Made by a program: the position numbers and the translations under genes. From positions 1-29,124 of IMG/VR virus record IMGVR_UViG_3300021964_000356: a stretch of DNA of 29,124 bases; one strand, 5' to 3'. Under the pieces are notes generated by a model that was not told where the DNA came from, made no database searches, and saw only the letters and a list, made by a program, of their open reading frames with translations. This stretch comes from a virus. This document shows, one piece after another, positions 7,387-19,805 of the stretch (the stretch's first letter is position 1; each line of letters begins with the position of its first letter).

Positions 7387-9519
7387 ATGGCAGAAACATT
7401 AGTATCACCAGGGGTATTAGCGAGAGAGACAGACCAGTCGTTCCTTACCCAATTACCTGTTCAAGTAGGCGCCGCTATTATCGGTCCCACAGTAAAAGGT
7501 CCAGTAAATATTCCTACAGTAGTTAGCACCTATAGCGAATACCAAAACATTTTTGGTACTACTTTCGTTAGTGCTAGCAACTCTAATTCATTCTTAACTT
7601 CAATTGCAGCTTATAATTACTTCAACGCAGGAGGTGATTCATTACTAGTAGCAAGAGTAGTAACAGGTTCTTACACTTCTGCTACTTCTTCTATTAACGC
7701 CGGGGTTCCAGTAGGAACTAAATTAGCTACAGGTAGTGGAGATTTAAGTCTAACATCAGGATTTGGTGGGCCAAGTGGTGTAGAAGACGAATTAAGATTC
7801 ACCTACTCAGGAACTACTTATAGATTCGTAGCAGCCGACCCAACAAATGGACTACCAGCTGATTCAGCTCCATTATACTTTGTGGCTACAGGTTCAGATA
7901 CAGCTGCTTATGTAGGATTCTTAGCTACTAAGATTTCTGAATCTTTAAGTTCTTCATTATTAACAGGTGTAGATGAAGGATCATCAGTGCTAGCAATTTC
8001 TGCTTCTGCCGCTGGTACTGCTCTTAATGGTATAACTATCCAAACAGGTTCAGCTTCTTCATTCGTAACGGCATTTACTTTAGGTGGTGGTGCCCAAACC
8101 GAATCTATTACAGAAGCTTTCCAATTAGAAACAATTGGTGAAGGTCTTATCATGAATAGTACCTGTACAGAAGCTTCAGATGGTGCATTGTTAGATTCAG
8201 GTTCTAGTGATAATATTAGATGGTCTGTAACTAATAGAAACACAGGTTCAGGTACTTTCACACTTATTGTTAGAAGAGGTGATGATAAGCAAAACGATCA
8301 AAACGTTTTAGAAACTTACAACAACTTATCTTTAGATCCTTATTCACCAAACTTTATTTCAAATGTAATTGGTGACCAAAAACCAGTATTAGATACTTCA
8401 GATTCTAGCAACCCTTATATCGCAGTTTCAGGTTCATATCCTAATGGTTCAAACTTCGTAAGAATTAAATCAGTTAGTTTATTAACCCCTAATTACTTAG
8501 ATAACTCAGGAAATCCAAAAGCGGCATTTACATCTTCTATCCCTTCATTAGGATCAGGCTCATTCGGTGGAGCTGAAGGTGCTGCTTTAGGTACATTTGG
8601 AACTACAGGTGCTACACCAGTATACGAAGCTATTACAACAACTGATAAAGGAGCTCAAGGTATTGCAGCAGCAGATTACACTGATATGTTAAATCTGTTA
8701 TCTAACCAAGATGCTTATCAATACAATGTATTATCTCTCCCAGGTGTAATTGATCAAGGTGCTTATGCTACAACAATTACAACTGCAATTAACAATACTC
8801 AAGTAAGAGGAGATGCATTATTAGTAACGGATGTTGCTACTTATGGATCTACCGTAACTACAGTAGTAAACGAAGCATCAGCAAGAGATACTTCATATGC
8901 AGCAACTTACTGGCCATGGTTAATGGTACAAGATCCTGACTTAGGAAGAAATGTTTGGATACCTGCCTCAACAATGATCCCTGCAGTATATGCTTTCACA
9001 GATAACGCTTCAGCTCCTTGGTTCGCTCCTGCTGGTTTAACTAGAGGTGCATTAGGTGGAGTAATTAAACCTGAAAGAATTTTAACTCAAGGACAAAGAG
9101 ATACATTATACGATGGTAAAGTAAACCCAATTGCTCAATTCCCAGGAACTGGTGTTGTAGTATACGGTCAGAAAACTTTACAAACTAAAGCATCTGCTTT
9201 AGATAGAGTAAACGTAAGAAGATTATTGATTGCTGTTAAGAGATATATTTCTCAAATTGCAAATAACTTAGTATTCGAACAAAATACTCAACAGACTAGA
9301 AATTCATTCTTAGCAGCTGTAGAACCTTATTTAGAAACAATTCAACAACAACAAGGTTTATACGCGTTTAGAGTGATTATGGATGACAGCAATAATACTC
9401 CGGATGTAATTGATAGAAACCAATTAATTGGTCAAATTTATTTACAACCAACTAAAACTGCTGAATTCATTTACTTAGATTTCAACATCTTACCAACAGG
9501 AGCTACCTTCCCAGCGTAA
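7387..9519 (+). CDS. gp18: Contractile tail sheath protein (gp18-like)
   Basis: A 710-residue protein, slightly longer than T4 gp18 (659). It begins with the typical sheath N-terminus (SPGV at ~7-10, then RETD and a QVGAAIIGPTVKGP segment). The C-terminal part (~500-710) carries the conserved sheath core, including WPWLMVQDP, a PAVYAFTDN-type segment, GVIKPERILTQGQRDTLY and the closing KTAEFIYLDFNILP strand. Residues ~100-330 are a less conserved Ser/Thr/Gly-rich surface insertion. Copies polymerise around the tail tube and contract on infection. The tube gene follows 47 bases later with a matching upstream motif. The leader has no Shine-Dalgarno sequence; the start is chosen because homologous sheaths begin just before SPGV. 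Confidence 0.95.
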   Translation: MAETLVSPGVLARETDQSFLTQLPVQVGAAIIGPTVKGPVNIPTVVSTYSEYQNIFGTTFVSASNSNSFLTSIAAYNYFNAGGDSLLVARVVTGSYTSATSSINAGVPVGTKLATGSGDLSLTSGFGGPSGVEDELRFTYSGTTYRFVAADPTNGLPADSAPLYFVATGSDTAAYVGFLATKISESLSSSLLTGVDEGSSVLAISASAAGTALNGITIQTGSASSFVTAFTLGGGAQTESITEAFQLETIGEGLIMNSTCTEASDGALLDSGSSDNIRWSVTNRNTGSGTFTLIVRRGDDKQNDQNVLETYNNLSLDPYSPNFISNVIGDQKPVLDTSDSSNPYIAVSGSYPNGSNFVRIKSVSLLTPNYLDNSGNPKAAFTSSIPSLGSGSFGGAEGAALGTFGTTGATPVYEAITTTDKGAQGIAAADYTDMLNLLSNQDAYQYNVLSLPGVIDQGAYATTITTAINNTQVRGDALLVTDVATYGSTVTTVVNEASARDTSYAATYWPWLMVQDPDLGRNVWIPASTMIPAVYAFTDNASAPWFAPAGLTRGALGGVIKPERILTQGQRDTLYDGKVNPIAQFPGTGVVVYGQKTLQTKASALDRVNVRRLLIAVKRYISQIANNLVFEQNTQQTRNSFLAAVEPYLETIQQQQGLYAFRVIMDDSNNTPDVIDRNQLIGQIYLQPTKTAEFIYLDFNILPTGATFPA

Positions 9520-9566: not shown

Positions 9567-10055
9567 ATGGCAATAGTAGACGTAAATACAATGTTTTTCA
9601 CTCCGTTTGAACCTAAGGTTCAGAATAGATTTATTTTTAATCTAGGTGGTGTTCCTGCTTTTATGATTAAAGGTCTATCTGCAGTAACTGTAGATCAGGG
9701 TGAAATTAAACTTAATCATATCAATGTTTATCGTAAAATTAAAGGTAGAGCCAACTGGGGTGATATCACGATGACATTATATGATCCGATCACTCCTTCT
9801 GGTGCACAAGCCGTAATCGAATGGTTTAGACTACACCACGAATCAGTAACAGGTAGAGATGGTTATTCAGATTTTTATAAGAAAAACCCAACTATCCAAG
9901 TTTTAGGTCCTGTTGGTGATATTGTTTCTGAATGGGTAATCAAAGGTGCATTTATTAAGTCTGCTAATTTCGGTGAATATAACTGGGATACTGATGCTGG
10001 TGCTGTAAACTTAACAGTAACGTTAGGTATGGATTATTGTGTATTAAACTTCTAA
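9567..10055 (+). CDS. gp19: Tail tube protein (gp19-like)
   Basis: A 162-residue protein, almost the same length as T4 gp19 (163). It has the family layout: N-terminal FEPKVQNRFIFNLGGVPAFMIKG, then a beta strand/loop, IKGRANWGDITMTLYDPITPSGAQAVIEWFR, and a closing beta segment (SEWVIKGAFIKSANFG to the C-terminal LTVTLGMDYCVLNF). Hexameric rings stack to form the inner tube through which DNA passes. It lies directly after the sheath gene, the usual order, and before a strong intrinsic terminator, so sheath and tube form a short late unit. Confidence 0.95.
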   Translation: MAIVDVNTMFFTPFEPKVQNRFIFNLGGVPAFMIKGLSAVTVDQGEIKLNHINVYRKIKGRANWGDITMTLYDPITPSGAQAVIEWFRLHHESVTGRDGYSDFYKKNPTIQVLGPVGDIVSEWVIKGAFIKSANFGEYNWDTDAGAVNLTVTLGMDYCVLNF

Positions 10056-10155: not shown

Positions 10156-10899
10156 ATGAGCGAATTTAAATTTCCAACTGAAACAGTTGAATTACCCTCT
10201 AAAGGTTTTTTCTACGCCGATGGTCATCCCCTAAGAGACGGTAAAGTAGAAATGAGATACATGACTGCTAAAGATGAAGATATCTTAACTAATCAAAATT
10301 ATATTAGAGAAGGAGTCGTATTAGATAAATTACTACAATCTATGGTTGTAGCTCCTGATTTTGACTTAAAAGATTTAATTGTAGGAGATAAAAATGCTTT
10401 ATTAGTAGCAGCTCGTATTTTAGGATATGGAGCTAATTATACTTTTACGGTTAGTGGTAAATCTGAAAGTATGGATCTTTCTCAATGTGAAAACATTAAT
10501 AATAATTTTGAGGGATTAACAGATGGGAAAAATGAATTTACATTTGTAACCCCTACTACTAAAACTAAATTAACCTTTAAATTATTAACGGGTCATGATG
10601 AAGTTAAAATTAATAAAGAAATTGAAGGTTTAGCTAAAGTAAATAAAGGTGGAAGTGATTTCCTTACTAGACTTCGTTACATCATTACATCTGTAAATGA
10701 TGATTCTTCATCTGAAGTTATTTCTGAATTTGTTAACGATTATTTTTTAGCTACTGATTCTAGAGAATTTAGAAAGCATTACAAGAACTGCATGCCTGAT
10801 GTAGATCTGTCCTACGAGGGGGAGGACGGTCGATTTCGCAGCGCTCCCATTGGACTTGACTTTTTTTGGCCTAACCTCGAAGATAGCGCTGAGTTATAG
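10156..10899 (+). CDS. gp26-type tail/baseplate assembly protein (upstream frame)
   Basis: A 247-residue protein resembling the T4 gp26-type base plate family: N-terminal TVELPSKGFFYADGHPL, then VEMRYMTAKDEDILTNQNYI (residues ~31-50), a beta segment with a conserved acidic/glycine pattern, and a C-terminal PIGLDFFWP motif (~232-240). It sits immediately upstream of the tape measure gene and overlaps a second frame there, the arrangement of tail assembly chaperones (lambda G/GT type). It may therefore be a chaperone that coats the tape measure during tail assembly rather than a virion component. A terminator precedes the gene; the start has no Shine-Dalgarno sequence. Confidence 0.75.
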   Translation: MSEFKFPTETVELPSKGFFYADGHPLRDGKVEMRYMTAKDEDILTNQNYIREGVVLDKLLQSMVVAPDFDLKDLIVGDKNALLVAARILGYGANYTFTVSGKSESMDLSQCENINNNFEGLTDGKNEFTFVTPTTKTKLTFKLLTGHDEVKINKEIEGLAKVNKGGSDFLTRLRYIITSVNDDSSSEVISEFVNDYFLATDSREFRKHYKNCMPDVDLSYEGEDGRFRSAPIGLDFFWPNLEDSAEL

Positions 10900-11179
10900 G
10901 AAAACCCTATTCCAGCAGATTCACGATATTATATTTCATGGTAATGGGGGGTATGATTTTTATACCGTCTATAATATGCCTATTTGGCTTAGAAAATTTA
11001 CCTTTAATGAAATAAAAAAATATTATGAAAAACAAGCTGAAGACTCTAAACAATCTCAATCTGATCCTAATAAAACTAGTATTATAGGGGAAGATGGAAA
11101 AATAAACCGCCCGGCATTTGCTGAATTAAGCAAACAATACCAGCCTCAAAACAAAAATAAAGCTCCAAAGTATTCATAA
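10850..11179 (+). CDS. Downstream frame of tail assembly chaperone (T-like extension)
   Basis: An open frame of about 109 codons overlapping the gp26-like gene by 50 bases. Its only initiation codon in the overlap is a TTG at 10850 with no ribosome-binding site, so it is probably made mainly as a frameshifted C-terminal extension from 10868 onward. The sequence contains QIHDIIFHGNGGYDFYTVY then MPIWLRKFTFNEIKKYYEKQ, followed by a charged, Gln/Lys-rich tail. This pattern (short helix, glycine loop, MP..LR, amphipathic helix) is like the T portion of tail assembly chaperones in other phages. It ends at a terminator hairpin that overlaps its stop codon, and the tape measure gene follows 40 bases later. 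If real as a fusion, it would recruit tail tube subunits to the tape measure. Confidence 0.6.
   Translation: MDLTFFGLTSKIALSYRKTLFQQIHDIIFHGNGGYDFYTVYNMPIWLRKFTFNEIKKYYEKQAEDSKQSQSDPNKTSIIGEDGKINRPAFAELSKQYQPQNKNKAPKYS
10861..10867 (+). other. Candidate programmed frameshift site (T7 run)
   Basis: Seven consecutive T bases occur where the gp26-like frame overlaps the downstream frame. The downstream frame is +1 (equivalently -2) relative to the first. A tRNA-Phe on the second TTT codon could re-pair perfectly after a -2 slip, or skip one base. Either route joins ...PIGLDFF to GLTSKIAL... and gives a product of about 340 residues. The downstream frame has only a TTG start without a ribosome site. 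Confidence 0.6.
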
Positions 11180-11219: not shown

Positions 11220-13757
11220 ATGGCGACATTAGACGAATTTAATAAGAAAATGACGGAATTAGAGAGAAAAATTAGCTCTCTAAGTCCTAATAACTCTGGT
11301 TTTAAACAAATGCTTGATAATATTAAGGCTGCTGAACAAGCAGGAACTAGTCTTAATGATCAATACGCTCAAGCTGAAACCTTATTAAATTCTGTTAATA
11401 GGGAAATTCAAGATATTAACAATGAATTAGGCTATACTTTTAGATCATTTACAGATATTGTAAATGAAATGACTAAAGGTAAAAATACTACGAATGAAAT
11501 TAAACGTAGTACCAAACAACTTACCAGTATCGCCGGGGATTTAGTTAATAGACAAAAAGATATTACAAATCTTTCTGTTAAACAATTAGAAAAATTACAA
11601 CAGAAATCTAAAGAAGAATTCCAAAATTTAAAAGTTCAACAAGAACAGTTAAAGGTTAAAGCACAAGCTGGAACCCTTACTGATAAGGAAAGAGCATTTT
11701 TAAATGAAGTAAATGGAATTCTACAAGAAAATGTTGGTCTACAATCTTCTTTTAATCGCCAATTAGAATCAGCTCTAAGAGAACAAACCGCTATTGAAGA
11801 ATCTTTAGGATTAACCGGTAGTATCCTTAAAGGAATAACCAACATCCCAGGACTAGGCCAACTTTCAGGTTTTCTTAAGGTAGATGAGGCTGTGGCCTCA
11901 ATGGAAGCATTTACTAAAGAACAAATTAATGCGGTTAAAAATAGTGATGCTTTTAAAGATAGATTTACTAGTATAAATTCTGAAATCCAGCAATATTCAG
12001 ATGCTATTAGTGATATTAATGAAAGAGAAGAACAAGGTTTACTTACAGCAGAAGAAGCAGATGAAAGAAGGGTAGCTATGCAAGGTCGTCTTAACGATGC
12101 TGTTGCAGAAAGATCTGAAATAGAAGCTGAAGCTACTGAAATTGCTACTGGTGGTTTAGGGAAAATGAAAACCCTAATGAAAGGTTTAGGATCTTTAGCT
12201 GGAGGGTTTGGTAAAGCTTTAACTGACCCTATGACTATCATTTTAGCAATTGCTAAAGCAGCCGGAAAAGCTAATGAACAGTTTGTAGGTATACAAAAAT
12301 CTTTAAATCTTTCATTAAAAGAAGCTAAAGAATATAAAGACCAATTAGTAGATGCTGCTAATGCTACCGGAAGTAATTACCTTAATAGTATAAAAGTTGT
12401 AGAATCCCAAATGGAATACAACGAACTATTAGGAGTTACAGGAAAATTAAATGCTGAAAACGCAGTTACTCAAACAGAATTAACTAAACAATTAGGAATA
12501 TCGGTTGAAAGTGCTGTACAACTTAGAAAATTTGCTGAAGCTACTGGTAAAGATTTCCAACAACAAAAACTAGATTCTTACGAAATTACAAGCCAAATCA
12601 GTTCTCAATATGGAGTTCAGGTAAACCAAAAACAAGTAATGGAAGAAGTAGGTAAACAAAGTGCCTACACATTAGCCCAATTCAAAGGTTCAACCACAGC
12701 ATTAACTGAAGCTATTTCAAAAGCTAAAGCACTAGGGACTGACTTAGGTAAAGTAAATCAAATAGCAGGAAGTTTATTAGATTTTGAGTCTTCTATTTCT
12801 AAAGAATTAGAAGCAGAATTACTTACGGGTAAACAACTTAATTTAGAAAGAGCTCGTTATTATGCTCTTACTAATGACATTAGTGGTTTAATGGATGAAA
12901 TCAATGATCAGATGGGAAACTTTAATGACTTCCAAAACATGAACGTTATCCAACAACAAGCCTTTGCTGAATCTTTAGGAATGAGTGTAGGTGATTTAAG
13001 TGAAATGTTATTAATGGAGCAATATAGGAATAATACCCTAGAAGAAATTGCTGCTATGGAAGGAGAAGATGTAGCTAAACAAGTTGAAAAACTTAGAACA
13101 CAAGAGGCATTCCAGGGGCTTATGGAAAAACTTCAAGCTACTTTAGTTGATATAGCTGATGGTCCTTTAGGTACTGTTATGAATATGTTTATTAGTATTC
13201 TAGATAATTCATTCGCTTTAAACACAGTTTTAGCTGGTATTGCTACAGTCCAAATAGCTAAAATGGTTTCGGGTTATGCCCAACTAGTCCCTAAAATCCT
13301 TGCAGCAGCAGCTGCAGAAAAAGCTAGTACTGCTGCTAAAGTTGCTGGGTGGGCAGTTGCAAACCCTTTAAAAGCAGCACTAGGGCTAGCTGCAGCTGCC
13401 GCCGCAGTAGGAGGTATTATGACTTTAATTAGTAATTCCGGTAAAAAAGAAGAACCAGGAGCTCAATTTGGTGGTGAAGTAACAAAAGGTGGTAGAGTAA
13501 TGGTAGGTGAAGTAGGACCTGAGGTCTTAGACCTCCCATCAGGTGCCCGTATTAATCCTTTACCTGTAAATCAAAGAAATGATCTTAGGTCTTCTCAATC
13601 TGCTCCAACAGTAGATATGTCTCCTGTAACACAAGCTATGCGTGAAATGCAAGCACAAAACCAACAACTAGCGGCTTCACTTAAAAATCTTCAAGTAGTA
13701 ATGTATCCTGCAAGAGTAACAGCAGGACAGGTTACTACAGAATCGCAAATTCAATAA
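11220..13757 (+). CDS. Tail tape measure protein (gp29-like position)
   Basis: An 845-residue protein. Residues ~1-170 and ~240-310 are long, charged, predicted coiled coil. Residues ~310-345 and ~655-745 contain hydrophobic and alanine-rich helices (for example LGLAAAAAAVGGIMTLI) typical of tape measure segments that may enter the host membrane. The C-terminal part has a GGEVTKGGRVMVGEVGPEVLDL motif (~750-775), common near tape measure C-termini, and ends in a Gln-rich coiled coil. Position just after the chaperone pair and before baseplate genes agrees. It is longer than T4 gp29 (590), so a longer tail than T4 is likely; at about 1.5 angstroms per residue the length would be roughly 120-130 nm (estimate only). 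Confidence 0.85.
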   Translation: MATLDEFNKKMTELERKISSLSPNNSGFKQMLDNIKAAEQAGTSLNDQYAQAETLLNSVNREIQDINNELGYTFRSFTDIVNEMTKGKNTTNEIKRSTKQLTSIAGDLVNRQKDITNLSVKQLEKLQQKSKEEFQNLKVQQEQLKVKAQAGTLTDKERAFLNEVNGILQENVGLQSSFNRQLESALREQTAIEESLGLTGSILKGITNIPGLGQLSGFLKVDEAVASMEAFTKEQINAVKNSDAFKDRFTSINSEIQQYSDAISDINEREEQGLLTAEEADERRVAMQGRLNDAVAERSEIEAEATEIATGGLGKMKTLMKGLGSLAGGFGKALTDPMTIILAIAKAAGKANEQFVGIQKSLNLSLKEAKEYKDQLVDAANATGSNYLNSIKVVESQMEYNELLGVTGKLNAENAVTQTELTKQLGISVESAVQLRKFAEATGKDFQQQKLDSYEITSQISSQYGVQVNQKQVMEEVGKQSAYTLAQFKGSTTALTEAISKAKALGTDLGKVNQIAGSLLDFESSISKELEAELLTGKQLNLERARYYALTNDISGLMDEINDQMGNFNDFQNMNVIQQQAFAESLGMSVGDLSEMLLMEQYRNNTLEEIAAMEGEDVAKQVEKLRTQEAFQGLMEKLQATLVDIADGPLGTVMNMFISILDNSFALNTVLAGIATVQIAKMVSGYAQLVPKILAAAAAEKASTAAKVAGWAVANPLKAALGLAAAAAAVGGIMTLISNSGKKEEPGAQFGGEVTKGGRVMVGEVGPEVLDLPSGARINPLPVNQRNDLRSSQSAPTVDMSPVTQAMREMQAQNQQLAASLKNLQVVMYPARVTAGQVTTESQIQ

Positions 13758-13789: not shown

Positions 13790-14158
13790 ATGAGTTTAAA
13801 AGATTTAGTAGATAACGCAAACACAAAGAGCGCTTTCCAAGCTTTATGGTCTCCCTCACCTACATCAGCATTAGGGCTAAAGAATACTACAAAACAATCA
13901 GAAATGCATTCTGATAATTCAGGTACAGCTGGAAAAGGATATTCATTATCAGGTGATCCTACCAAAAATGCTTTACCTAAAAATCAATATTTTAGGTACC
14001 AAATTAATAAGACTGTATCCATTCCTAATCCTTCTACTATTGATAGCAATACAGGAGTCTCTACTACATACACTACCCACTACCCAGGTAATGGTCAGTT
14101 AGGTACAGGTAGATATTCACAAAATGCTCCTGAAGGTAAAACTCCTGGAGGATTATAA
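13790..14158 (+). CDS. Hypothetical small tail/baseplate protein
   Basis: A 122-residue protein I do not recognise. It starts with a short helix (SLKDLVDNANTKSAFQALW) and continues with Ser/Thr/Asn/Gly-rich, low-hydrophobicity sequence, suggesting an extended or loop-rich structural protein. It has no membrane segment, cysteine or catalytic motif. It lies between the tape measure and the tube/baseplate-junction gene, with only 10 bases to the latter, so a role in baseplate or tail-tip assembly is likely by position only. Confidence 0.65.
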   Translation: MSLKDLVDNANTKSAFQALWSPSPTSALGLKNTTKQSEMHSDNSGTAGKGYSLSGDPTKNALPKNQYFRYQINKTVSIPNPSTIDSNTGVSTTYTTHYPGNGQLGTGRYSQNAPEGKTPGGL

Positions 14159-14168
14159 TTTATAGAAT

Positions 14169-15905
14169 ATGCCATTAATAAATTCCTTAAATCAAACAGA
14201 TTTTAGGACTTTAAAATTTTCTAATTATACTGACACTCCCCCTACAGTAATAGTTCCTATTCCTGACTCAAAAGGAGAACAAAAACCAGTAGGAATTCCA
14301 GGGTACAATATTTTACCCCCTTTTGGAGGACGTGGAGGAAATGTAACAGATTATTTTAGAGGTGGAACTGGCTTACCTAAAAGTATAATTGCTGATGAAG
14401 TAAGAATTGGTAGCTTATTTATTCAAAATAACACCCCTCAAACTAAAGGTACTTTATTTGTTGCTAAACAAAATCAATTATCTCTTGCAAGTGTTAGAAC
14501 CCAAGCCGTAAACCCAACCTCCGTTGTTAATGATGGTATTTATAACCCTGCAAATACTTTATTAAGTGTAGCAGGCATTTCCGAGGGGATTTTTATCCCT
14601 AAACAAACTCGTTTAAAAAAATATTCACAACTTATTACTAACGATGGAGAAGAAGACAATTACTCCATCTCAGGAAATGATACTAACAGATTAGTACAGT
14701 TAGTAGCAACTAAAATAGGTAAGGATGATGTTGAAAATACCTCTAAAAGAAATACTATTAGCAAAAATGAAAATGCTATACTAGGATACACAGGAGGCCC
14801 AGGTTCAGCATTAGGTGTTGGTAGAACACGACTTTATTTTGCAGGTTATGATTTAAAATCAGGACGTACAAATACTTACAACCCTAACAATGATCAAACC
14901 GGGACTTTAACTTTAACTTCCCAAGAAATATTAGCTGCATCTTCTTCTTTAATGTCCTCTACTATAGGAAAATATGACATTAATCCTAAAGTTTATGATT
15001 TTAGAAAGACATTACGTACTAAATTAAGTGGATCCTCTAATATAATTTCAATTTCACCCGATTACGACACATATAGTAGAGAAAATAATTTTAACTTAGG
15101 AGATCCTGGTAACCCTACATATAATAGATACAATCCTAATAATGGAATTGGGTATAGTGGTAGTGTAAAAGCCTTAGATAAAATTACTGCTTTTCCTATG
15201 TACAGAGCTAAAAATGCAAGTAATGGTAGTGCTACAATCCCCTTAAAAGATATAGTTAAGTTTAGAATTGCTTCTATTGATAATAATGATCCTAATTTTA
15301 AAGTGTTTACTCATTTTAGAGCCTTTATTAATAATTTTAGTGATACTTATACCCCCGAATGGAATGGGGTTAAATATGTGGGTAGAGGAGATTCTTTATA
15401 TAGATATGGAGGTTTTACTAGAACTATGCAATTAGAATTTGAGGTAGTAGCCCAATCAGTTCAAGAACTGCTTCCTATGTTTTCAAAATTAAACTTTATA
15501 GCTTCTAATACTATGCCCGACTATTCAGACGCGGGGTATATGAGAGCTCCTTTAATTGAACTTACTATAGGAGATTATCTAGTTGACCATCCTGGGTTTA
15601 TTAGTAATTTAACTTATACCCCTAATTTAGAAGCTGGGTTTGATATTAATATTCAGGATGAGAATACCAATAAAGAACTTCCTAGAATGATGAAAGTAAG
15701 TATGGGCTTTACCCCAATCCCAGACTTTATTCCAAAAAAACTTAAAGGTAATTTGGTAGAACAAACAGATGTAACTACATTATCTTCTAAAGAAGTAGGA
15801 ACCGACCCAAAAGGATATATTGAAAAATTTGAACACAATTATTTTGGTAATTTAACTACAGAAGCTTACGTAGAATCAGATACTCCAACAGAATCAGATG
15901 AATAG
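14169..15905 (+). CDS. Baseplate/tail-tube junction protein (gp48/gp54-like)
   Basis: A 578-residue structural protein. Residues ~1-350 are loop-rich with many Asn/Gly/Thr and Pro. Residues ~375-540 contain a pattern seen in tube-initiator baseplate proteins: FRAFINNFSDTYTPEW, then YVGRGDSLYRYGGFTRTMQLEFEVVA, then LPMFSKLNFIASNTMPDY and APLIELTIGDYLVDHPGFISNLTY. This alternation of strands and a long helix resembles the tail-tube fold, so the protein probably caps the hub and starts tube polymerisation like T4 gp48/gp54. It overlaps the LysM-like gene by 8 bases. The exact T4 counterpart is uncertain. Confidence 0.65.
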   Translation: MPLINSLNQTDFRTLKFSNYTDTPPTVIVPIPDSKGEQKPVGIPGYNILPPFGGRGGNVTDYFRGGTGLPKSIIADEVRIGSLFIQNNTPQTKGTLFVAKQNQLSLASVRTQAVNPTSVVNDGIYNPANTLLSVAGISEGIFIPKQTRLKKYSQLITNDGEEDNYSISGNDTNRLVQLVATKIGKDDVENTSKRNTISKNENAILGYTGGPGSALGVGRTRLYFAGYDLKSGRTNTYNPNNDQTGTLTLTSQEILAASSSLMSSTIGKYDINPKVYDFRKTLRTKLSGSSNIISISPDYDTYSRENNFNLGDPGNPTYNRYNPNNGIGYSGSVKALDKITAFPMYRAKNASNGSATIPLKDIVKFRIASIDNNDPNFKVFTHFRAFINNFSDTYTPEWNGVKYVGRGDSLYRYGGFTRTMQLEFEVVAQSVQELLPMFSKLNFIASNTMPDYSDAGYMRAPLIELTIGDYLVDHPGFISNLTYTPNLEAGFDINIQDENTNKELPRMMKVSMGFTPIPDFIPKKLKGNLVEQTDVTTLSSKEVGTDPKGYIEKFEHNYFGNLTTEAYVESDTPTESDE

Positions 15906-16166: not shown

Positions 16167-19100
16167 ATGGGAAATATATTAGGAGAACCAATTAAAGGTC
16201 AAATACAAAAACAAATTGAAGTTCGCCAAAAATATTATGGTGATAATAAATCTTCAATTGATGATCCAGCTGAAAACGAAAAGTTAAGAAATCTTAGAAT
16301 TCAATTAAACCAACAACGTTCTCCTTTTATTCGTTTATCTTCAAGTGTTAATATAGATGATGAAAATGTATTATTAAAAGCTGGTATTCCTGCTGGGTAT
16401 AAAAATAATGTATTAGCTAAATCTTTAGTATTATTTAATGGTTCTTCTTTATGGAATAACTCAAAATTTATTCAACGAGGAGGATTAAATAGAAGTACTA
16501 GTACCTTTAGAGTAGGTGATGATACTTTAGGAGCTTATGGTTTAGGGGGAGTAGGAGAGGAAAATGTCTTAACTGATTTTGGTCAAGTTCCTATGCCTGG
16601 GATTAAAGACATTCAAGTACAATACAAAAATAGAGGATCTTTAAGACAAGCCTCTATCTCATTAACAGCATACAATATAACTCAATTTAACGCTATTGAT
16701 TTACTTTATCTTAGATTAGGTTATACTGTATTATTAGAATGGGGTAATAATGTATATATAAATAATGATGAAGAATTAGAAACCCAAAAAACCCCAACTT
16801 ATTATAAAAAATTTATAGATGGTGGTTTAGATTATTACCAAATGTTAGCTGAAATTGAAACAGCTAGAGTATCCTCTCAAGGAAATTATGATGCTATGAT
16901 AGGTAAAATTACTAATTTTAATTGGAATTTTACTAAAGAAGGTAATTATGAAATAACTATAAATTTAGTTAGTATTGGGGATGTTATAGAATCTATTAAA
17001 GTTAATTCTATTTCATATAATGTTGTAGGATCCTCATATGAAAACAAATTAAAATCTTTACAAGCAGAAGTTCGAAACTTAGAAGAAAAGGCGATTCTAC
17101 ATAGACAGGCAGCACGTTACTACGGTGGGTATCAATATACAGGTGGACTTCTTGATGCTCAAAGATACGAAGAAATTACAGGATATAAAACCGCTATTAA
17201 TGTCCAGATTGATTTTACAATCGATGCAAGTGGCAACTTTATCCCAGCGGAAGAATCAAATTTTTCCCGACCCCTTTATCTTCAAACTGATGATCCCGCT
17301 GGCCTAGAACAATACTCTGAAGAACTTGATCAATATTATGAGAACATAAAAGAATTTGCTAAAAATATTGACGCAACTCCTGAAAGTCCTTTAGGAGATG
17401 CTAGAAAACGACTACAAGACTTTCTTGATAGCAATGTAGATGAAGGTTTAAGTTCTAAAGCATATTTAGAAGCTAGTTCTGTTTTGTCTAATATAGGATC
17501 GGTTCTTAATAGTGACATATCATACTATGAAGCCGCTAGTCAATTTTTAGTCCGTAAAAGTGGAGATACATTATCAAGATCCGGAAATAATTACCCTATA
17601 GACTATGCTAGAATAAGATTTTCGGGAGTTAATGAAGGTTCTGAAGACCAAGATGGACTTTTTGATAAAGAATATTATGTTAGATTAGGAACTCTTTTAC
17701 AATATCTTCAAGAATATGTATGTTTCGTTTATGTTCAAGATGGAAAAGGTACCCCTGCTTTAACATTTGATATAGACCAAAATACTAATCTTATTCCTAT
17801 TAATGCTTCAACATTCCCATCTGACCCCAGAATTTGCATTTTTGATACAGGTGAGTTTACATTTTATGGGCAAGGCTATAATTTGTATACGGGAACTGAT
17901 AAAAGTACAGGAGGAGCTTCAAATTTGCTTTCAACCTTTATAAAAGAGGTTGAAACTGAACCCGTTTCTTATGTAGGAAGATTAATGAATTTATATATTA
18001 ATGTAAAATATATTCTAAAAAAAGTTAATAGTGGGTATAAAGAAGAAGGGGGTGTTTCACTTTTTGATTTATTAAGATATATATGCGATGGAATTAATAA
18101 AAATCTTGGAGGATTAAATAAACTCGAACCTGTTATTGATGATACTACTAATATAGTTTATTTAATAGATCAATCTCCTATAGCTAAAGAAACTTTAGAT
18201 AAATTAGGATACACACAAAATTTTGATCCTAATAAAACGGCTACATTTCAAATTTATGGTTTAAATCCTTTAATAAATGGAGAATACGAAGGAAGTTTTG
18301 TTAAAGATTTTAATATTAAAACTGAGATTTCCCCTAAATTAGCTACTCAATTAAGTATTGGAGCTCAAGCTATTGGTGCCTCCATAGCTGAAAATGCAAC
18401 CGGATTACAATGGTTCAACCAAGGAATTATAGATAGAATTTCTCCTAAAAAAGTAGATGATATAGATATTGATAAAGAAGCTGAAGAATTAGGTATAACC
18501 CAAACCTTATCTGCTAAGTTACTAGGCCAAAAGGATTTAACCTGGGCGATTTTAGAGAATGTTGAAGATAGAACAGTAACCCCCTCCCAGATGAATCAGT
18601 TAATATCTTTAAATAAAACTTTCCAAAATTTACTTTCTACTGAAATATCGGCCCAAACTAAATCTCCTACTCCACAAGGGACAGGTTTTATTCCTATTAA
18701 TTTATCCCTTACTATGGATGGTCTTTCTGGAATAAAGATTTATAATACGTTTGGTGTAAATTCTAAATTTTTACCTCCTAACTATGGTAGCAATTTACTT
18801 TTTATTGCTACTAAATTAAATCATAAAGTAGATTCGAGTGGTTGGGAAACTACTTTAGATTCTTTAGTTATTCCTTCTTCTGTAGGTAATCAAAACGCAG
18901 AATCACTTATTCAAAAAGGAGATGGAACAACACCAAAACCAAAACACACCGATACCGAAACCGATCTTCATATAGTAGGAGACGATTACACATACTACTC
19001 AGGAAAAGAAAGTCAATTTAGAAAAATAGTCCCTACTAGTATTATCCTTCATATTACAGTATCTAATCATACAGCTAAAAGAACAGTTGAATCCGTAAAT

Positions 19101-19805
19101 AAAGTAGATAAATATGCCGATAAGGAAAACCCTTACTTTACAAACGGTATCCATTGGGCTGTAGATAGAACTGGAGGCACATTTGCAGGAATACCCGAAG
19201 GTAAACACTCAGCTCATGGTAATAATTGGAATGATCATTCTATCGGTATTGAAATATCTAGTTATGGTTATGTTGTTCCTATTACTTTAGACGATGGAAC
19301 TATTGAATATGCTACATATTATGATGAGAGAGCAAACAGTAAAAGAGACCCAGGTGATAGAAGTACAATCCCAGAATCCCAAGTAATTCAACTTAAAAAC
19401 AAAGATGGTAAACCTTGGTATTGGATGGGTCATGGATACTTCCAAGAATATACAGATGTCCAAATAGCAACATTAAAAACTTTAATACAAGGTATCCTTT
19501 CTCGCCATGACGGAAAGAAAAAAATAGCAGAAACTGGAGAAATCTCAGCCCCTATAAAAGATGGAATTAAAGGAAGTGTCTGGTCAGTATTTGGTATGAC
19601 TGAAAGACCTCAAGCAGCTAGAGATTATAATAGAAGTGCTTTATCAATCCCACCAAATAAAGCAGATGGTAAAAGCTGGGACCAACTTGGTATATTTACT
19701 CATACTACAGCAGCAACTACAGACCATACTGACCCTATACCTACACCTAAATTAATCAACATGCTCCTATCTTTAGGCTATACTGATACTGACCCATCTT
19801 ATTAA
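16167..19805 (+). CDS. Baseplate hub protein with C-terminal zinc amidase
   Basis: A 1212-residue protein. Residues ~1-930 look like a large baseplate hub: segments such as GIKDIQVQYKNRGSLRQASISL, YLRLGYTVLLEWGNNVY and a late NGLSGIK-like strand (LTMDGLSGIKIYNTF) occur in myovirus hub proteins. Residues ~945-1212 form an N-acetylmuramoyl-L-alanine amidase domain of the Amidase_2/PGRP type: ILH (H962), HWAVDRTGG, SIGIE (E1029), and H1179 followed ten residues later by D1189-P. The H...x9...DP spacing equals the last two zinc ligands of AmpD. H1187 stands where AmpD has its catalytic lysine. The domain probably opens the cell wall during DNA entry, replacing the lysozyme role of T4 gp5. Confidence 0.8.
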   Translation: MGNILGEPIKGQIQKQIEVRQKYYGDNKSSIDDPAENEKLRNLRIQLNQQRSPFIRLSSSVNIDDENVLLKAGIPAGYKNNVLAKSLVLFNGSSLWNNSKFIQRGGLNRSTSTFRVGDDTLGAYGLGGVGEENVLTDFGQVPMPGIKDIQVQYKNRGSLRQASISLTAYNITQFNAIDLLYLRLGYTVLLEWGNNVYINNDEELETQKTPTYYKKFIDGGLDYYQMLAEIETARVSSQGNYDAMIGKITNFNWNFTKEGNYEITINLVSIGDVIESIKVNSISYNVVGSSYENKLKSLQAEVRNLEEKAILHRQAARYYGGYQYTGGLLDAQRYEEITGYKTAINVQIDFTIDASGNFIPAEESNFSRPLYLQTDDPAGLEQYSEELDQYYENIKEFAKNIDATPESPLGDARKRLQDFLDSNVDEGLSSKAYLEASSVLSNIGSVLNSDISYYEAASQFLVRKSGDTLSRSGNNYPIDYARIRFSGVNEGSEDQDGLFDKEYYVRLGTLLQYLQEYVCFVYVQDGKGTPALTFDIDQNTNLIPINASTFPSDPRICIFDTGEFTFYGQGYNLYTGTDKSTGGASNLLSTFIKEVETEPVSYVGRLMNLYINVKYILKKVNSGYKEEGGVSLFDLLRYICDGINKNLGGLNKLEPVIDDTTNIVYLIDQSPIAKETLDKLGYTQNFDPNKTATFQIYGLNPLINGEYEGSFVKDFNIKTEISPKLATQLSIGAQAIGASIAENATGLQWFNQGIIDRISPKKVDDIDIDKEAEELGITQTLSAKLLGQKDLTWAILENVEDRTVTPSQMNQLISLNKTFQNLLSTEISAQTKSPTPQGTGFIPINLSLTMDGLSGIKIYNTFGVNSKFLPPNYGSNLLFIATKLNHKVDSSGWETTLDSLVIPSSVGNQNAESLIQKGDGTTPKPKHTDTETDLHIVGDDYTYYSGKESQFRKIVPTSIILHITVSNHTAKRTVESVNKVDKYADKENPYFTNGIHWAVDRTGGTFAGIPEGKHSAHGNNWNDHSIGIEISSYGYVVPITLDDGTIEYATYYDERANSKRDPGDRSTIPESQVIQLKNKDGKPWYWMGHGYFQEYTDVQIATLKTLIQGILSRHDGKKKIAETGEISAPIKDGIKGSVWSVFGMTERPQAARDYNRSALSIPPNKADGKSWDQLGIFTHTTAATTDHTDPIPTPKLINMLLSLGYTDTDPSY

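Follow-up and report, generated by a model that had tools for sequence, protein, structure and literature searches.

In a marine bacterial virus, one gene appears to yield two forms of a helper protein for tail building. The locus lies in the IMG/VR record IMGVR_UViG_3300021964_000356 (positions 1 to 29,124; the whole stretch of 29,124 nucleotides that was analysed is referred to as the window) and is read here as that of a two-form tail assembly chaperone (TAC), the long form of which would be produced by a +1 frameshift, a reading to which we give a probability of about 80% based on comparative sequence data. The comparison of related loci strongly supports a programmed frameshift into a T-type chaperone domain, and the frameshifted production of a chaperone of the T4 gp26 type is very likely. 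The features of the locus are as follows:

7387..9519, + strand: tail sheath gene (context); phrog_23, E 6.7e-68; PF17482, PF04984
9567..10055, + strand: tail tube (gp19-like) gene (context); phrog_4542 tail tube, E 1.2e-23
10156..10899, + strand: ORF1, short tail assembly chaperone (TAC-N/G-like), T4 gp26/gp51 family; phrog_150, E 2.4e-8
10802..10804, + strand: TAG closing the second frame upstream
10858..10872, + strand: putative shift site GAC_TTT_TTT_TGG_CCT; near-invariant among relatives, silent-site constraint
10868..11179, + strand: predicted +1-frame T domain of 103 residues, beginning GLTSK; kept at 141/146 loci; helical model
10897..10899, + strand: zero-frame stop TAG, end of the short form
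11220..13757, + strand: tape measure protein gene, directly downstream; phrog_167, E 0.022 (weak)

ORF1 and the second frame overlap directly ahead of the tape measure gene, with the coordinates and sequence that the initial annotation had described, and they are sited between the tail tube (9567-10055) and tape measure (11220-13757) genes, as is the G/GT gene of phage lambda; the tape measure gene is placed as in the annotation of phage immuto. The second frame is +1 relative to ORF1, open from 10805 to 11176 and closed by a stop codon at 11177-11179. The overlap (10801-10899) is richer in G+C (52%) than the remainder of ORF1 (approximately 30%) and the window as a whole (34%). Behind the tape measure gene, two genes encoding 122 and 578 amino acids (13790-15905) gave no PHROG or Pfam match, and in a protein of 1212 amino acids (16167-19805) that is possibly a tail-associated lysin, the region around residues 956-1035 is amidase/endolysin-like (phrog_1493, phrog_822). 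The window opens with a truncated protein (1-1551) that matches collagen-like and tail fibre families.

ORF1 belongs to the T4 gp26/gp51 family. The profile phrog_150, which includes both T4 gp26 and gp51, is matched by ORF1 of the window (E 2.4e-8) and by 43/43 relatives scanned. The Pfam profile search did not report PF12322 for the window ORF1 itself; a 48%-identical homologue (L181/L236, E 2.6e-9) as well as L132 and L235 score above the PF12322 cut-off. Since hhalign comparisons of ORF1 with small gp26 and gp51 alignments were not significant, the assignment of ORF1 to the family is based on the deeper phrog_150 and Pfam profiles. The two halves of the fusion were modelled separately. The ORF1 model (pLDDT 91.6) supports a TAC-N fold, residues 1-101 matching 3fgx, 3klu, and 2ob9 as ranks 1-3 of 767 chains with moderate VIA-align Z scores of 6.3, 5.7, and 4.9, which, being below 8 and not decisive alone, are supportive but not final. 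These three structures are described as phage tail assembly chaperones (PMC9603447), 2ob9 being the TAC of HK97. The link between the T4 gp26 family and tail chaperones drawn by the initial annotation is not new: as far as it is cited in PMC12846349 and PMC10885494, the work of Vladimirov et al. 2022 already contains it. The view of T4 gp26/gp51 as a G/GT pair arisen by duplication, arrived at independently here, is likewise published.

The second frame is predicted to encode a short helical T-type domain. Its model (pLDDT 75.5) found no significant PDB match. The DUF6760 profile (PF20546) scored the T domain below its cut-off (E 0.0028, 18.1 bits versus 27) and gave no match in four phage records, and a profile comparison of the T domain with five DUF6760-type sequences exceeded 150/150 shuffles; these sequence comparisons point to a domain related to DUF6760 that we do not file as a member. 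DUF6760-type sequences also aligned with T4 gp51 above 150/150 shuffles. T4 gp51 consists of a gp26-like domain, aligned with gp26 over the full gp26 length (hhalign 99.5%), and a C-terminal extension of approximately 45 residues, and it is there (residues ~204-249) that the T domain aligns best, albeit weakly (E 0.003-0.007; 1/100 column shuffles scored higher). Moreover, phrog_634 was matched by 4/25 T members (best E 0.0012). The 95-144 kb region of phage S-PM2, looked at for cyanophage gp26 and gp51, contained neither. In two contractile-injection-like loci of Bacteroidota (L240 and L241, both at 859-1626), a single frame of 255 residues carries PF12322 and DUF6760 domains. This pair corresponds in kind and order to the one in the window but is fused in frame, with no frameshift needed. 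Two further contractile-injection-like loci (L237, L238) likewise have a gp26-like and a DUF6760-type T domain fused in one frame. These in-frame fusions suggest that DUF6760 is a tail-chaperone T domain.

At the presumed shift site, ORF1 is read in the zero frame as GAC TTT TTT TGG CCT (10858-10872), and the T7 run behind GAC noticed in the initial annotation is present at 10861-10867. T7 runs occur 15 times on both strands of the 29-kb window, 14 of them on the minus strand, and the only one on the coding (+) strand is the shift site; T7 thus seems to be avoided on the coding strand elsewhere in the window. The sequence CTTTTTTTGGCCT is found once versus 0 expected.

To compare related loci, viral contigs were searched with ORF1 (48 loci) and with ORF2 (at least 80 loci). 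Among the matches listed, 113 distinct close relatives were left after removal of duplicates, and a wider set comprises 146 distinct loci with both parts. The T domain lies in the +1 frame at 141 of these 146 listed loci and at +2/-1 in five. A re-pairing site is found in the overlap at all 141 listed +1 loci (138 YTT_T, 3 TTT_C), and in the first set the second frame is at +1 in every locus with both parts, with overlaps of 20 to 134 nt. Outside the ORF1 overlap, differences in the T frame at codon positions 1/2/3 amount to 11445/7285/31050, a pattern indicating divergence as protein-coding sequence. A sequencing error, to which some methods are prone at homopolymers, or a pseudogene could have created the frame change; the same offset at more than 140 distinct loci from many samples, among them the cultured phage immuto, and the coding-type divergence of the T frame refute this explanation, which we regard as having practically no chance of being correct. 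The conserved offset and the constrained site support the programmed frameshift into a tail chaperone fusion proposed in the initial annotation, whose reading is right for the most part.

Across the 113 listed close relatives, (A/G)C_TTT_TTT_TGG_CCT forms a core that hardly varies, silent positions included. The site is TTTTTT|TGGCCT in 75 loci, CTTTTT, ATTTTT or TTTTTT ahead of other TGG contexts in 24, CTT directly ahead of TGG in three, a T9 run before CCT in nine, and otherwise different in two. The conservation that the initial annotation had proposed to check in related phages is found for the offset (141/146 listed loci) and not for the T7 run itself: because relatives have TTC_TTT_TGG, TTT_CTT_TGG or CTT_CTT_TGG, the conserved core is, judged by sequence, YTT_T(GG). 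Transcriptional slippage can arise on homopolymer T runs of similar length, and with its T7 run the window could be a template on which RNA polymerase slips and creates an mRNA population in two frames; the offset is kept, however, where the longest T run spans three or four bases (in TTC_TTT_TGG, TTT_CTT_TGG, CTT_CTT_TGG and TTT_CTA), which makes this alternative very improbable.

Silent-site constraint was assessed in loci whose T parts are less than 78% identical. Where an Asn, Asp or Ser(AGY) codon, with C and T synonymous in third place, precedes TTT TTT, its last base is C in 43/44 of these diverged loci, compared with 20% C elsewhere in ORF1 (p 4e-29, a nominal value that is too small as shared ancestry is uncorrected). 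This base is read in the zero frame only and not in the +1 product; coding by the second frame therefore does not explain it. A U at this position would create U_UUU_UUU, a canonical -1 site, which is likely the reason for the C. The Pro codon after TGG is CCT in 46/46 loci, an invariance that can be explained by dual coding. L050, L061, L067 and many similar loci (71-80 nt overlap) have an extra T run, ACTTTTTTTCCC, with TTT_C approximately 50 nt 5' of the main site; this run falls within the overlap, where the +1 frame is open, and might serve as a second shift site. A +1 chaperone pair of the same kind is also present in L185 (contig CP070664.1, a 2.8-Mb WOR-3 MAG chromosome record), where tube-like and tape-measure-like genes adjoin it (L235).

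The start codons available to the second frame bear on whether the T domain is a separate protein, initiated at TTG 10850 or 10856 or re-initiated past the ORF1 stop. The window offers these two TTG codons as the only start-like codons ahead of the T domain, and the next ATG of the second frame (10976) falls within the domain. The initial annotation had taken the TTG start without a ribosome site as an argument for the fusion; the TTG codons are as described, but Bacteroidota mostly do not use Shine-Dalgarno sites, and the missing site is weak evidence if the host belongs to them. Among the 113 listed relatives, 46 contain ATG or GTG within ORF1 in the frame of the T domain, 27 have TTG only, the TTG of the ATT-GGN type being a by-product of conserved Ile-Gly codons, and 40 have no ATG, GTG or TTG before the domain, so that the second frame can be expressed there by frameshifting only. 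The overlap in the 113 relatives is bounded upstream by a T-frame stop and goes down to 20 nt, the counterpart of the window TAG (10802-10804) sitting few bases 5' of the T run in many of them. In the typical short overlap TAAACTTTTTTTGGCCTGACCTCTAA, a TAA shuts the second frame immediately 5' of the site, and no ordinary start is therefore usable. In two distant relatives (L166, L171) the end of ORF1 is altered and the T domain lies in another frame with its own ATG 5-8 nt past the start of the ORF1 stop codon; there a separate T protein is probable, and the fusion is therefore not always required. Relatives with an own start, named in the initial annotation as evidence against frameshifting, thus exist, but site or frame changed together with the start, and they are exceptions rather than a refutation. 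With the slip site kept at silent positions in addition, a separately initiated T protein is an unlikely explanation for the window.

The frameshift reading leaves two directions, +1 and -2, between which the initial annotation had not decided. On T7 the Phe tRNA re-pairs perfectly in both cases and reaches the same frame, a -2 shift adding one Phe at the junction. The two are not equal across relatives: in TTC_TTT_TGG (L156-L170) a -2 slip would place the Phe tRNA on UCU, and in TTT_CTA (L132, L190) on ACU or CCU, whereas both sites re-pair fully after +1. The +1 direction is therefore favoured by these variants, and a -2 shift is improbable.

Following from the conserved offset and the site, we infer this course of events: most ribosomes would stop at 10899 and release the short, TAC-N/G-like form of 247 amino acids, and some would slip one base forward at UUU_UGG. 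The peptidyl-tRNA-Phe on the P-site codon UUU (10864-10866) would re-pair on UUU (10865-10867) with the A site over UGG still empty, and GGC (10868-10870), CUA and ACC would be read next, on to 11179. The TAC-NC/GT-like long form with the C-terminal helical T domain would have 340 residues (237 + 103), the size of the fusion given in the initial annotation. If assembly proceeds as in lambda, the tape measure protein, encoded downstream, would acquire a coat of many short-form and few long-form copies, with tube subunits recruited through the T domain.

Folding of the window and 53 relatives revealed no downstream RNA structure (mean z about -0.3) and a weak upstream signal (mean z -0.8). Inverted AGCGCT and CGAGG repeats flanking the window site, spotted by eye, were rejected as they fold no better than shuffles (z 0.77). 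The site resembles that of prfB (RF2), CUU_UGA, where a P-site YUU re-pairs on UUU, and CTT_TGG is found in L030, L044, L130, and most of L191-L203. In phage immuto (L130), which infects Flavobacterium sp. LMO8, the site reads AGC_TTT_CTT_TGG. While prfB has a stop codon in the A site and an upstream Shine-Dalgarno-like stimulator, the A-site codon here is the sense codon UGG, a Shine-Dalgarno-like element is absent at the position that it occupies in prfB, and the analysis identified no stimulator; the shift efficiency may therefore be low. We tentatively consider, at somewhat less than even odds, that YUU_UGG represents a widespread bacterial +1 frameshift class that uses a sense A-site codon and dispenses with stop codon, Shine-Dalgarno-like element and 3' RNA structure, with the conserved nascent peptide IPIGLxFFWP as a possible aid and C rather than U kept before the run to block -1 slippage at U_UUU_UUU, and in hosts that mostly ignore Shine-Dalgarno sites.

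The locus is like lambda G/GT and its counterparts in P2, HK97, and SPP1 in its placement between tube and tape measure and in having a short and a frameshifted long form, the latter predicted here from sequence. It differs in the sequence family, ORF1 being gp26/gp51-like, and in direction: known cases mostly use -1, a slippery heptamer being usual, not universal, whereas +1 on YTT_TGG is found here. Canonical T_TTT_TTC, read as GAT_TTT_TTC with the T-like frame at -1, occurs only in L176, L231, and L232 among the 146 loci listed; in L176 (2140-2330) the same domain pair thus goes with the opposite direction of shift. The site of the haloarchaeal myovirus HSTV-2 is very likely +1 as well, in an archaeal host (PMC5009743). 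Pakpunavirus/Vandenendeviridae and Andersonviridae are myoviruses that, as here, have a conserved poly-T at the TAC-N 3' end and behind it a frame that is often recorded as a hypothetical gene of its own; their shift is proposed to be -1, at GTTTTT, a -1 site being reported for Pakpunavirus (PMC12846349). In the same way, a hypothetical protein of 36 amino acids is annotated where the frameshifted T domain lies in phage immuto (L130, 4339-4449) and a separate hypothetical gene in Microcystis phage Mel-JY01 (L131, 4237-4473), entries that the present reading corrects.

According to a review (PMC5009743), long-tailed phages other than T4 share a conserved G-T frameshift. In the account that PMC10885494 gives of Vladimirov et al. 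2022, some T4-like phages carry a short TAC gene and a fused long one in place of a frameshift, and T4 itself makes its short (TAC-N) and long (TAC-NC) forms from the paralogous genes of gp26 and gp51; the window phage apparently uses one gene and a frameshift. As cited in PMC12846349, Vladimirov et al. 2022 also report poly-T sites in T4-like TAC-N genes, and frameshifting in gp26-type genes may to some extent be described there already. The kind of system is known; the new part is the unannotated conserved +1 site with its natural variants. If the reading is true, gp26-type chaperones of T4-related phages can arise by frameshifting, which was argued to be absent for the two-gene T4 system. 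General motifs for bacterial +1 shifts are lacking (PMC10885494), and the many natural variants of this site would define one. One domain pair with several solutions, namely +1 and -1 frameshifting, in-frame fusion, gene duplication and a separate gene, would then become comparable within one family.
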